From an uncultured Dehalococcoidia bacterium (GTDB lineage Bacteria > Chloroflexota > Dehalococcoidia > Lucifugimonadales > Australimonadaceae): a stretch of 42,739 bases of DNA. Shown piece by piece: positions 15,380 to 33,669 of this stretch (position 1 is the stretch's first letter; each line of letters starts with the position of its first letter). The stretch covers positions 1 to 42,739 of the forward strand of contig CALGTL010000053.1 of assembly GCA_937901475.1 (NCBI GenBank), given 5' to 3'. The position numbers were made by a program, and so were the translations under genes. The notes below the pieces were generated by a model. The model saw nothing but the letters and a program-made list of their open reading frames with translations. It had not been told where the DNA came from and made no database searches.

Positions 15380-17175
15380 CAATCAGCCTCCGGTGCGGCA
15401 CTCTTAAGCGCCACCGGTTCAATATTCACCACAAAATCAAGCTTCACCGCAGCAGTCGGGGTTTCGCTTTCAGTATGAGCCCCTCTTCGCGTCGTCAGTG
15501 GTCCGACGAAAGGAGCTATAGGGAGAGTGCTGTACCCTCCCATCTGAGCGAGGAACTCATCACCGAAATGTTTCAACGCGGAGTCCACAGGGTTATAACC
15601 AAGCTGTCCGTGACCACACAGCGATCCTGCACGAAGATTCGCCCCGATACGTGCCATGAGGCTCATATCTCCATCACGGGAGTCCCCCGCACATATTCGA
15701 TCAAACACGTCCAGCAAATGAGAGGTCCCGAGCCTGCAAGGGAAACACTTACCGCACGACTCCATTTGGTCGAACGCTAGCAGGTTACGAACCAAATCAA
15801 CCACTGAACGAGTCTCGTTACAGACAATAAGGCCACCTGAGCCAAACATCGCTCCAGAAGCAGCCATCACGTCATAGTCTAGAACCATGTCCAGCTGGTC
15901 AGCCGGCAACACGCCCCCGAGTGGCCCCCCGGTCTGGAGGAATTTGATCGGCTTACCATCAGGATCTCCACCGCCAAGGTCCTCGACGACTTGCCGCATG
16001 GTCAGGCCGAACGGAATCTCGACAAGTCCTGGGTAACGGATATCACCAGACAGGCAAGCGATAGCTGTACCGGCGGACTTTTCTGTTCCGATGCTGTTGA
16101 ACCAAGTGGCTCCGCGTCGAACGATTTCAGGTACGTAGCTAATCGTTTTAATGTTGTTTATATTGGATGGTTTACCCCATACGCCGTACGCAGCGGGGAA
16201 CGGCGGTCGAAAGCGAGGCATTGACCGCTTCCCTTCGACTGCCTCCATTAACGCTGTTTCTTCTCCTGCTACGTAGGACTCACCAACTAGTGAGACCTCA
16301 ATATCAAATGAGAAGTCGGTGCCCATGACACGTTGGCCAAGAATTCCATTGGCGTAGCACGCGCTTATCGCTGCCCGTGTTCGGTCAATAGGAGAGTCGT
16401 TGCCATGGCGGATGAAAACAATGCCGTTAGATGACCCGGTCGCGTAGCCAGCGATGATGCATCCTTCGATGAGCGTCAGGGGGTCGGTGTCCAAAATTGT
16501 CTTATCATTGAAAGCACCAGGATCACCCTCTTCGCAGTTGCAGAGAATGTACTTGATAGGCGACGGGTTCCCGGAAAGGAATCCCCATTTCGTGCCGGTA
16601 GAAAATGCAGCCCCACCGCGACCTCGTAGGCCGGAGTCCCGTATTACTTGCACGACCTCGTCGGGCTGCATTTCGCTGAGCGCCTTGTCGAGCCCTGCGA
16701 AGCCGCCTCGCGCGATGTAGTGATGGAGGTTCGCAGGCTCTATCTCACCCGCATTCCGCAAAGCAATGCGCACTTGATGTTGCATCATCGGCAAATCTTC
16801 GCGACGAGGCATGCCAGGAACATCCCCGTCCACTGAGGCCAGCGCCAACTCCACAACTGGTGCTCCGCCCTTGATATGCCGATCTAGGATTTCCGGCACA
16901 CGCTCAGGCCCCAGGTTTCCATAAAGGACCCGCGCTCCTCCTGGCATGGAGACGTCAACGAGCGGCTCAGCGTAGCAAAGGCCCGTAGTACCAACCTCCG
17001 ATATTGTTACTTGAATACCTGACAAACCCACGTGATCTCGTAACGCCTGGAGCGTATCGCGGGCTCCCGCAGCTGTGCCCATCATGCCAGTGCTTACACG
17101 AATCCAGGGGCGAGTTTTTAGATCAGCCCAGCTATCCGTGGCGACATCGAGCAGGCGTTCAAAGACCTCAGTCAT
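15379..17175 (-). CDS. NuoF-like NADH-binding subunit
   Basis: RGRGGAAFSTGTKWGFLSG, CNCEEGDPGAFNDKTILDTDP, GAGxxY-type region EVSLVGESYVAGEETALMEAVEGKR, ESCGKCFPCRLGT. Likely start MTEVFERL (17175) rather than 17190. Confidence 0.93.
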   Translation of the reverse strand: MTEVFERLLDVATDSWADLKTRPWIRVSTGMMGTAAGARDTLQALRDHVGLSGIQVTISEVGTTGLCYAEPLVDVSMPGGARVLYGNLGPERVPEILDRHIKGGAPVVELALASVDGDVPGMPRREDLPMMQHQVRIALRNAGEIEPANLHHYIARGGFAGLDKALSEMQPDEVVQVIRDSGLRGRGGAAFSTGTKWGFLSGNPSPIKYILCNCEEGDPGAFNDKTILDTDPLTLIEGCIIAGYATGSSNGIVFIRHGNDSPIDRTRAAISACYANGILGQRVMGTDFSFDIEVSLVGESYVAGEETALMEAVEGKRSMPRFRPPFPAAYGVWGKPSNINNIKTISYVPEIVRRGATWFNSIGTEKSAGTAIACLSGDIRYPGLVEIPFGLTMRQVVEDLGGGDPDGKPIKFLQTGGPLGGVLPADQLDMVLDYDVMAASGAMFGSGGLIVCNETRSVVDLVRNLLAFDQMESCGKCFPCRLGTSHLLDVFDRICAGDSRDGDMSLMARIGANLRAGSLCGHGQLGYNPVDSALKHFGDEFLAQMGGYSTLPIAPFVGPLTTRRGAHTESETPTAAVKLDFVVNIEPVALKSAAPEAD

Positions 17176-29962: not shown

Positions 29963-31147
29963 TTGGATAAGCGCTACGGCGTGGAGGCGAGCATGGCAAC
30001 AGCACCAGTAAAGACGCTCAAAATCGACGGTGATTCCCATTTCTTCCCTCCGATTGATTTCACCGATGTCGCAGAGAACGCTGGGTTACCAGAATCAGCA
30101 GTCGACATGTTATTACGCGATACAGCAGTCTTCGCTGACCGCGAAGCGCGCCGCGGAGGATTCCGCGCAACCACCGCCGGCAAGCGCGTAGCGGCAGTGA
30201 ATCCCACTGCCGCCTCAACGCAGCAAGGAAACGGCCCCATGGGCCACGGGGCGGCGGAACAACGTGTCCAATTGCTACCCGACACAGGCTTCGATATGCA
30301 GGTGTTGATACCTGACGGTATCTTCGCCAACGCTTTCGGCTCACCCATGGGACGAGAATGGGGAGAGGGGTTACACCTCGCGCTCAGCATGTCCTACAAC
30401 AATGCCGCCGCCGCCGCGCAGAACGCCTACCCCGATCAGCTGATTGCATGCGGTGTCGTGCCTTTCGGGACCGAGTCATTAGAGGTAAATATCGCCGAAG
30501 CGAAACGCGCCGTGAACAAGCTCGGTGTGAAATCCTTGATGGTCAACTCCAACTGGCGTGGCGCGAACTGGGATTCGGTTGACCTTTACCCGTTCTGGGA
30601 TGAGATGAACAAGCTCGGAGTCCCTATCTACGTGCATGGCAATCCTTTTTCCTGTCAAGTACAAGACCATGTCCCGACAAATTGGACCATCGGCTGGGAG
30701 CGCATGCGAAGGCTCCATATCTCCAACTACCTCGGTTTCGGTTTTGAATACATGATCAACATGGCCAGCATGACACTTGGAGGATTACTCACTGATTTCC
30801 CCAATTTGAAATTCGCTTTCTTCGAAGCAGGTGCCTCATGGTTGCCTTGGGTGATGTACAGCCTTGATCGCGTTTACGCAATCGAGCCCCAGTGCGCGCG
30901 CTGCGAAGTCAAACCGAGCGAGTTGATTCTGAATTCAAGCTATGTAGCCGCAGAGCCCGATGAGGACGCAATCGTAGGCGCAATCAAGACTATCGGTAAC
31001 CAGAATTTCATCGTAGGCAGCGACTATCCTCACCCGCCAAGCACTTTTCCCGACACCGCAGCCGGTATCCTGAATATGCCCGGGCTGAATGACGAGGACA
31101 AAGAAGCCCTGCTCGGCGGCAACCTTAGGCGCCTATTCAACATTTAA
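29963..31147 (+). CDS. Amidohydrolase family (Amidohydro_2-type) metal-dependent hydrolase
   Basis: KIDGDSHFFPP, IYVHGNPF, LKFAFFEAGASWLPWVMYSLDRV, FIVGSDYPHPPSTFPDT. Confidence 0.85.
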   Translation: MDKRYGVEASMATAPVKTLKIDGDSHFFPPIDFTDVAENAGLPESAVDMLLRDTAVFADREARRGGFRATTAGKRVAAVNPTAASTQQGNGPMGHGAAEQRVQLLPDTGFDMQVLIPDGIFANAFGSPMGREWGEGLHLALSMSYNNAAAAAQNAYPDQLIACGVVPFGTESLEVNIAEAKRAVNKLGVKSLMVNSNWRGANWDSVDLYPFWDEMNKLGVPIYVHGNPFSCQVQDHVPTNWTIGWERMRRLHISNYLGFGFEYMINMASMTLGGLLTDFPNLKFAFFEAGASWLPWVMYSLDRVYAIEPQCARCEVKPSELILNSSYVAAEPDEDAIVGAIKTIGNQNFIVGSDYPHPPSTFPDTAAGILNMPGLNDEDKEALLGGNLRRLFNI

Positions 31148-31210
31148 TAGTTGACGTCCAGTCGTAGAATCAGACCGCGAACGAACATCAGACTCTAGCG
31201 GAGTTTTCTT

Positions 31211-31852
31211 TTGGCAACGATCAAAGCAGATGTGTATTTCGATTTCAGGTGACCCTTCGTCTTTAATGCAGCCGTCTGGCTGGATCAGGTCAAAGAAGCA
31301 AGAGAAGCAAGAGAAGCTCCCATAGAGATCACATGGAAGCCATTCTCGTTGCAGCAGGTCAACCAGAAGATTGGTCCCGACTATAAGGCTTGGGAGGAAC
31401 CGGACGAAGACTTGGATGGCAGCCTATGGGGACTCCGCGCAGGTGTTGCCGCGAAGCGCCAAGGCGAGGACGCCATGCGCCGCTACATGCCCTTGCTACT
31501 GAACGCACGACATGAAGAGCGTAAAGACCTCGGCGACAAGGAGGTGCTCAAGGAGTTAGCGGTACGGGCAAATCTAGATCTTGAACGATTCGCCAAAGAC
31601 CTTGATGACCGTACAGCCCTTGACGAAATAGCGGCAAGCCATAAAGAAGCCGTTGCGGAGCATGGAGTATTCGGTACCCCCACTTTCATATTTGAGAACG
31701 GTGCGTCGGCCTTCCTCAAAATCATCCGGCCAAAAACTCTCGCCGAAGCGGAGAAAGCCTTCGATTCACTGGTTGATGTCATGACGAACAATCTCTTTAT
31801 CGGTGAAATCAAGCGACCACAACCTCCTTGGCCTAGGGGCGTTTTCGACTAA
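31211..31852 (+). CDS. DsbA-family thioredoxin-like oxidoreductase with in-frame TGA at the active-site Cys position (candidate selenoprotein, or TGA-interrupted gene)
   Basis: TTG start after ggag; reads MATIKADVYFDFR-[TGA]-PFVFNAAVWLDQVKEAREAREAPIEITWKPFSLQQVNQKIGPDYKAWEEPD... continuous in frame with ORF 31349-31852 (GVFGTPTFIFENGASAFLKI). Confidence 0.8.
31250..31292 (+). promoter_or_regulatory. Candidate bacterial SECIS element
   Basis: UGA(31250) ... CAGCC(31269-31273)-GUCU(31274-31277)-GGCUG(31278-31282); outer UGACC(31250-31254)/GGUCA(31288-31292). 21 nt from UGA to apical loop, with G first in the loop. Confidence 0.5.
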
Positions 31853-31890: not shown

Positions 31891-31930
31891 AGGTACTTAT
31901 CTCTTGCTCAACAAAAACACTCCATCTCTC

Positions 31931-32617
31931 ATGAAGCTCCAACGCGCCATCGGCGTGAAATTCGAAAACACGGGCCTGCTCAAGCAAGCCTTAACTCATC
32001 GCTCATATCTCAATGAGCACCCCGGAGAAGGCTTCGAAGACTACGAACGCCTGGAATATCTAGGCGATGCGTTTCTTGGCTGGGTGATTGCCGACGAAAT
32101 CTATCGGCGCCATCCCGCTTTCACGGAAGGCGATCTCACTAGGGGGCGTGCAGCCCTTGTGCGAGGAGCAACTCTCGCGCAAGTAGCACGAAGTTTCCAC
32201 GCCGGCACCTACATCACCATGGGCTCCGGGGAGGAAGGTACAGGCGGCCGAGAGCGCCGCGGCACGCTGGCAGCCATCGTCGAATCGCTCATCGGCGCAG
32301 TTCTCTTGGATAAAGGAGATAAGGTCGCCCGCGAGCTCGTACTCCGGTGGCTTGGTCCAAAGATTGAAGCCATGGATCCCGCAGGTGCTCCTCGAGACGC
32401 CAAGAGTGCATTGCAGGAAACGTGTCAAAGGAAGGGGCTGCCCTCTCCTACCTACGAGCTTGTCGATGAAGAAGGTCCCTCGCACAACATGACCTTCGAG
32501 GTACGGGTACTCATCGATGGCGAAATACATGGGCACGGCAAAGGGCGGCGCAAGGTTGACGCCGAGCAAGCTGCAGCGGCGGAAGCCTTGGGCGAAGGAG
32601 CTTCCTCACTCGGCTAA
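31931..32617 (+). CDS. rnc: Ribonuclease III
   Basis: ALTHRSYLNEHPGEGFEDYERLEYLGDAFLGWVIADEIYRRHP, SLIGAVLLDKGD, C-terminal dsRBD. ATG at 31931; the upstream TTG 31904 is an alternative. Confidence 0.95.
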   Translation: MKLQRAIGVKFENTGLLKQALTHRSYLNEHPGEGFEDYERLEYLGDAFLGWVIADEIYRRHPAFTEGDLTRGRAALVRGATLAQVARSFHAGTYITMGSGEEGTGGRERRGTLAAIVESLIGAVLLDKGDKVARELVLRWLGPKIEAMDPAGAPRDAKSALQETCQRKGLPSPTYELVDEEGPSHNMTFEVRVLIDGEIHGHGKGRRKVDAEQAAAAEALGEGASSLG

Positions 32618-32715
32618 CGTTGCTCTGTTCTGCTTGTAGGCATCCTCCTACGCAAGTATCCTGCGGGTAGATGATTTCCACGTTCGCGCCTCTGGCATAG
32701 GACTTCTCTCTACCC

Positions 32716-33669
32716 ATGGTCTTCAGACTCTTCCGGCACAAAGAAAAAACCACAGAAGCCCTCGCTAAAACTCGCAAAGGTTGGGGCGGGGGGCTCAGCG
32801 CTTTGTTCCAGGGAGCAACTCTCTCCGATGAAGCTTTATGGGAGCAGGTCGAAGGCGCCCTCATCTCCGCCGATGTAGGCGTCAACACTTCCCTTGCATT
32901 GGTGAATCGAGTCCGCCAGCGCGTGCGCGACGAAAGCGCATTCGACGTAATCGAAATGTTCAAAGAAGAAATGGCGGTCCTTCTCGACTCCAAAGACAAA
33001 GCTGTATGGGATTGGTACGACCAAGAAAATCTTCCAGCCAAGCCCTTTGTTCTCATGGTCGTTGGTGTTAACGGTGTCGGAAAAACCACTAGCATTGCGA
33101 AACTTACCAAGCACTACCAAGAGCTTGGTAAGACGGTGATGGTCGGGGCTGGTGACACCTTTAGAGCAGCTGCGATAGAGCAAGTACAGGTTTGGGGAGA
33201 GCGGCTGAAAATCGATATCATTGCGCACCAACAAGGATCGGATCCCGGTGCTGTGGCCTACGACGCTTACCAGGCTGCGGTAGCTCGCGGAGCCGATGTT
33301 CTCATCTTCGATACGGCTGGGCGCTTACACAATAAGGGCCCGCTCATCGAGGAACTGCGTAAGGTTCGCCGGATATTCGAGCGCTTCGACGAATCGGTAC
33401 CCCACCAGACATTGCTAGTCCTAGATGCAACCACTGGCCACAACGGGCTCGAGCAGGCCAAGGTCTTCCAACAAGCGGTGGGCGTAAATGGAGTATTCCT
33501 GACCAAGCTCGACGGCACCGCAAAAGGAGGAATCGCTGTTGCAATTGCTCAAGAGCTTGACCTGCCTGTCATCTTCATCGGCACGGGGGAAGGGATAGCC
33601 GATATTTCTATGTTTGATACCGACGACTTCGTCGATGCGTTGTTCGGCGATGAACCCGCAGCGAAATAA
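32716..33669 (+). CDS. ftsY: Signal recognition particle receptor FtsY
   Basis: VVGVNGVGKTTSIAKLTKHYQELGKTVMVGAGDTFRAAAIEQVQVW, IFDTAGRLHNKGPLIEELRKV, LTKLDGTAKGG, GTGEGIADISMF. Confidence 0.97.
   Translation: MVFRLFRHKEKTTEALAKTRKGWGGGLSALFQGATLSDEALWEQVEGALISADVGVNTSLALVNRVRQRVRDESAFDVIEMFKEEMAVLLDSKDKAVWDWYDQENLPAKPFVLMVVGVNGVGKTTSIAKLTKHYQELGKTVMVGAGDTFRAAAIEQVQVWGERLKIDIIAHQQGSDPGAVAYDAYQAAVARGADVLIFDTAGRLHNKGPLIEELRKVRRIFERFDESVPHQTLLVLDATTGHNGLEQAKVFQQAVGVNGVFLTKLDGTAKGGIAVAIAQELDLPVIFIGTGEGIADISMFDTDDFVDALFGDEPAAK

Follow-up and report, generated by a model that had tools for sequence, protein, structure and literature searches.

The 42,739-nucleotide stretch of Dehalococcoidia DNA that we analyzed (the window) carries a gene for a DsbA-like protein with an in-frame UGA codon, and the hairpin that follows this codon is real and very probably a bacterial SECIS (bSECIS) element. 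Judging from comparative sequence analysis, we regard it as almost certain that the hairpin at positions 31266 to 31285 is a minimal element of this kind, at which SelB would be held and the UGA at 31250 to 31252 would be decoded as selenocysteine 14. Elements of this type are well known, and the present one adds a well-supported case to them but no new phenomenon, both the signal type and the protein family having been predicted already. The features concerned are as follows.

31200 to 31203, forward strand: GGAG, a likely Shine-Dalgarno sequence 7 nt 5′ of the TTG start, read directly from the sequence.
31211 to 31852, forward strand: predicted Sec-containing DsbA/Rv2466c-like gene of 213 codons, with a TTG start, a TAA stop, and UGA as residue 14.
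31250 to 31252, forward strand: in-frame UGA, predicted to encode selenocysteine 14 within D-F-R-U-P-F-V (UGA in 85 and Cys in 7 of 92 distinct orthologues).
31266 to 31285, forward strand: putative functional core of the SECIS, the hairpin AU-G-CAGCC-GUCU-GGCUG-G-AU (position-specific synonymous-codon test).
31269 to 31273, forward strand: 5′ arm of the core stem, CAGCC, starting 16 nt after the UGA (covariation in 62 orthologues).
31274 to 31277, forward strand: apical loop GUCU, with G first and U second, starting 21 nt after the UGA.
31278 to 31282, forward strand: 3′ arm of the core stem, GGCUG (covariation in 62 orthologues).
31288 to 31292, forward strand: GGUCA, outer arm pairing with 31250 to 31254 but not conserved within the element (no covariation, no constraint on the flanks).
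31904 to 32617, forward strand: rnc (RNase III), a conserved downstream neighbor (TIGR02191, 224.9 bits).

The UGA lies in frame with the TTG at 31211 and the TAA at 31850, and most orthologues start with ATG at the equivalent place, preceded by a purine-rich site. The read-through product matches the Pfam DSBA family (PF01323; 1.1e-17, 64.9 bits against a cutoff of 25.6) and the Rv2466c-like family PF22234 (6.8e-07, 30.1 bits against a cutoff of 27); an NCBIfam profile search with the same protein returned no family. In DsbA-fold proteins, the active-site Cys sits where the TGA-encoded residue 14 falls, and the 213-residue product itself contains no Cys. Downstream of the Sec-DsbA gene, rnc was found in 110 of the 114 loci fetched, a synteny that supports the orthology of the DsbA-like genes. 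ftsY is often also near the two genes (31904 to 33669; loci L016 to L160), and the neighborhood is conserved across many SAR202 families. The amidohydrolase gene upstream, at 29963 to 31147, was found in the window's genus only.

The preliminary description had quoted the sequence from 31250 to 31292 correctly, and the 5-bp CAGCC/GGCUG stem with a GUCU loop that it saw there is present and pairs in the RNAfold prediction, with an AU/AU extension across a G·G mismatch; only about half of the orthologues have preserved these two AU pairs. It had, however, placed the start of the stem 21 nt after the UGA, which is where the loop begins; the stem begins at 16 nt. Taken singly, the window hairpin folds unremarkably (RNAfold z = 0.14 against shuffles), and in a loose search, 37 of 100 synonymous recodings had a SECIS-type hairpin just as good in the vicinity. 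Because neither of these statistics is discriminating, a comparative and position-specific test was needed. At its exact position, the window sequence reaches −9.5 kcal/mol, whereas synonymous recodings give −4.0 kcal/mol (P = 0.002). An Rfam search of the window at the gathering level gave no match, which neither supports nor contradicts a SECIS. Directly 3′ of the hairpin, at 31294 to 31317, lies a short repeat of the GAAGCAAGA type, which encodes REAREAREA and is an insertion relative to most orthologues.

Our comparisons used 92 distinct orthologues, 85 with UGA (65 in group A and 20 in group B) and 7 with Cys. The bSECIS model, as quoted in PMC13188914, calls for a loop of 3 to 9 nt, an upper stem of 4 to 16 bp, 16 to 37 nt from the UGA to the loop, a G as the first or second loop nucleotide, usually with G or U next, and a minimum free energy of −7.5 kcal/mol or lower. 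The window hairpin has a 4-nt loop on 5 bp, with 2 more across the mismatch, and loop and stem fall within the size limits in all 85 UGA orthologues. Its loop starts 21 nt after the UGA, the spacing being 20 to 23 nt in all 85, and its energy is −8.8 kcal/mol for the 20-nt hairpin and −9.5 kcal/mol for the 24-nt segment, with 76 of the 85 reaching the threshold. The early G is present in the GUCU loop of the window and in 57 of 65 group A genes; by minimum energy, it is present in 1 of 20 group B genes, but nearly all have it in an alternative fold considered below. Like the E. coli fdhF type of bacterial SECIS, the window thus combines an in-frame UGA with a small apical hairpin, a G-then-U loop, and a selected upper stem, whereas the CAGCC-GUNU-GGCUG stem-loop sequences are the family's own and there is no constrained lower stem.

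The preliminary description had in fact proposed a 43-nt element, closed by an outer UGACC/GGUCA stem that includes the UGA. These arms exist and form in the predicted fold of the window, but they are neither conserved nor selected. Among 62 orthologues, they show no covariation, and two of the pairs are broken in more than half (G2-C42 in 35 and C5-G39 in 40). Furthermore, when the core was held fixed, the flanking codons showed no folding constraint (mean z, 0.08; +0.77 for the window), which argues that the predicted SECIS is a minimal apical hairpin of about 20 nt, without a selected outer stem. Such a hairpin is in keeping with the finding that an upper stem-loop of 17 nt suffices in E. 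coli (PMC11431864). We consider it very improbable that the larger structure is the functional element.

Some of the core pairing falls on codon positions that are fixed by the amino acids, and this, like the ordinary single-sequence statistics, is what would be seen if the hairpin had no role as RNA and simply followed, as a by-product, from codon usage and the conserved peptide N-A-A-V-W-L. We addressed this explanation by moving a 24-nt frame along each gene and comparing it with synonymous recodings that followed each genome's own codon usage. At codons 5 to 12 after the UGA, the 85 UGA genes folded better than their recodings (mean z, −2.77; P < 0.1 in 96%). This peak is unique in the gene, the 46 other positions tested giving z values of about −0.4 to +0.3, and it is missing from the Cys orthologues (mean z, −0.11 at the same codons; n = 7). 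The full 5-pair core stem was seen in 46 of the 65 UGA genes of group A, against 6.6 expected from protein sequence and codon usage, and in none of 6 Cys orthologues. Similarly, all 85 UGA genes, versus 1 of 7 Cys genes, form a local hairpin with an energy of −5 kcal/mol or lower. Selection on the hairpin is therefore evident in the UGA genes and not in their Cys homologues.

The core helix also covaries. Across 62 orthologues, 93.2% of its cells are paired, and three of its five pairs have changed on both sides, so that the compensatory changes for which the preliminary description had suggested looking are indeed present among TGA orthologues. There were 10 such double-sided changes, and none of 500 shuffles scored as high in either covariation or count, figures that are not probabilities, since the sequences share kinship. 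Compensated variants include CGACC/GGUUG in L040, UAGCU/GGCUA in L118, and UGCCAAC/GUUGGCA in L140. Even where the encoded amino acids have changed (to A-N-M, A-T-V, or V-T-V), as in L140 and L146, compensating bases have kept the stem. An origin as a by-product is contradicted by these results and highly unlikely. RNAalifold did not choose the core helix unaided from the 62-sequence alignment, probably because subgroups shift register (GCC GCC...CTG GCA). An independent-pair test of Sec/Cys contrasts, of which there are too few, gave three of four in agreement and none opposed (P = 0.25). The two observations that the preliminary description had named as counting against a SECIS were not encountered: the hairpin is stable in the predicted fold, and the TGA orthologues have conserved structure.

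The constancy of rnc downstream raises the alternative that the hairpin is conserved as an RNA signal of another kind, such as one that serves RNase III cleavage or couples the gene to the neighboring rnc. Some Cys orthologues, L046 and L047 among them, keep rnc but have lost the hairpin, which argues against a role tied to rnc, and the position and loop rules of the hairpin are those of a SECIS; we hold another role to be very improbable. Least credible of all, to the point of being negligible, is that the UGA is a real stop, that it reflects decay or misassembly of the gene, or that UGA means Trp or some other residue throughout the genome: the plain table-11 reading does give a shorter ORF, starting at 31349, but 85 distinct orthologues share the UGA at this codon and have an intact frame downstream, Cys replaces it in 7, TGA ends 6 of the 29 main ORFs of the window, and the genome has a full Sec system.

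That system comprises SelA (505.8 bits), SelB (354.4 bits), SelD (306.3 bits, with an in-frame UGA), and tRNA-Sec (71.2 bits, anticodon UCA), all in one genome. The SelD gene (L162; G000:C143:1-696, reverse strand) itself encodes a selenoprotein, with UGA in frame in LATCAGUAGK, and is cut by the end of the contig; the best hairpin downstream in this gene has GGA as its loop, where the DsbA-like gene has GUCU. We searched 59 genomes, the window's own and relatives, and found the gene with TGA in 32, all of which have SelB and/or tRNA-Sec (both in 28). Of the Cys-bearing genomes, G042 has neither, and G023 (the genome of L046) has retained both SelB and tRNA-Sec, presumably for other selenoproteins; machinery and UGA are thus not perfectly linked. 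The DsbA-like gene, SelB, and a UGA-containing SelD are all present in the cultured “Ca. Lucifugimonas marina.” In G211 (the genome of L099), there are two near-identical SelD copies, at 15765 to 16688 and 3386799 to 3387722, near the two ends of a 3.4-Mb contig, possibly the overlapping ends of an unclosed circle. Thus, the bacterial SECIS reading put forward in the preliminary description is upheld by its agreement with the published bSECIS constraints, by the retention of the hairpin with UGA and its loss with Cys, and by the presence of the Sec machinery.

Group B, a sister subgroup, consists of L111 and 19 further loci, including that of “Ca. Lucifugimonas marina,” and its 20 genes encode U-P-W-V-R-Q-A. 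The folding constraint is present here too (P < 0.1 in 19 of 20), but most of the lowest-energy loops are AUUUG and have no G near their start. An alternative fold, CAG(G)CC/GGCUG with the loop GGCAUUU, is higher in energy but better kept (97.9% of cells paired versus 90.2% for the AUUUG fold) and would obey the G rule. This SAR202 subgroup may differ from the bSECIS consensus in that its stem is bulged and its loop is GGCAUUU. In “Ca. Lucifugimonas,” the SECIS of SelD carries a loop of the AGGUC type, which makes an ordinary loop preference of its SelB likely.

In bacterial Sec decoding, the SelB-GTP-Sec-tRNA-Sec complex binds the loop, and Sec is delivered as the UGA enters the A site (PMC13188914). 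By analogy, the apical GU loop of the window hairpin would be bound by SelB carrying Sec-tRNA-Sec(UCA) and GTP, the hairpin would hold SelB about 16 to 21 nt behind the UGA, and the codon at 31250 to 31252 would be read as selenocysteine 14 rather than ending translation. The predicted product would be a cytosolic thioredoxin-fold protein of 213 residues, in which Sec, at the N terminus of helix 1, is the only chalcogen nucleophile. Since it lacks Cys, it most likely acts as a mono-selenol oxidoreductase and would need an outside thiol or thioredoxin for its resolution.

AlphaFold2 modeled the read-through product confidently (pLDDT, 91.9), and the nearest solved fold was that of DR2335 from Deinococcus radiodurans (7dk9/7dka; TM score, 0.82), also the closest solved structure by sequence (3e-25). 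DR2335 likewise has a single active-site residue and is cytoplasmic, but in its CPYA motif it has Cys where the window protein has Sec; its function is unreported (PMC8945050). The mycothiol-dependent nitroreductase Rv2466c (4nxi, 4zil, 5xur) shares the fold and the PF22234 match. It has, however, a second active-site Cys, C22 (entry 5xur), where the window protein has Val, and we rejected assignment to the Rv2466c-type nitroreductases on this ground. A periplasmic thiol oxidase of the DsbA type was also rejected, the protein having no leader (strand 1 starts at residue 4) and U-P-F-V instead of CxxC.

The motif U-P-[FWY]-V occurs in 84 of the 85 UGA orthologues, the window's D11-F-R-U14-P-F-V fitting both D-x-x-U-P and U-x-x-V, and 77 of the 85 have no Cys downstream of U. 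Two published predictions resemble this family: “DsbA 3” from the GOS survey of 2008 (pfam01323, UxxV, five sequences; PMC2398784) and “DsbA-like protein form 2” in a 2026 review (PF01323, DxxUP, listed in a table with one accession, MDP6049977.1; PMC13188914). They share with it the PF01323 match, D-x-x-U-P-[FWY]-V, and a marine origin, a correspondence made by motif and description, and the texts that we searched name neither Chloroflexota nor SAR202 for these entries.

The window's own genome is a Chloroflexota genome of the SAR202 type, and the homologues that carry names come from SAR202/Dehalococcoidia (Chloroflexota) genomes. In a tree of the 92 proteins with the Sec/Cys site masked, about five Sec/Cys changes are needed; the Cys genes L121, L138, and L156, which have lost the hairpin, lie near the Sec genes L039, L116, L127, and L149. 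L163, which shares the window's class but not its order, has TGA with a hairpin, and the relatives checked elsewhere in the phylum (L164 to L167) have Cys. A more far-reaching proposal, which we offer tentatively and regard as rather unlikely, is that this is an order-wide, vertically kept mono-selenol DsbA-fold enzyme of SAR202, without a resolving Cys and with its own role on a low-molecular-weight thiol or a small organic substrate, and that the divergent SECIS of one subgroup (bulged, with a GGCAUUU or AUUUG loop) is still read by SelB despite departing from the usual rule.

Our literature searches turned up no account of SAR202 selenoproteins. As far as we found, the SAR202-wide assignment, the evidence at the RNA level, and the approximately five Sec/Cys switches are new. 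These switches amount to a natural experiment in which the hairpin has been kept or lost accordingly. For annotation, the consequence is that reading by the standard genetic code truncates the DsbA-like gene, and the prediction could be tested in a cultured host, “Ca. Lucifugimonas marina.” For the biology of the group, the results indicate that selenocysteine use is widespread and has been retained in SAR202, a lineage abundant in the dark ocean.
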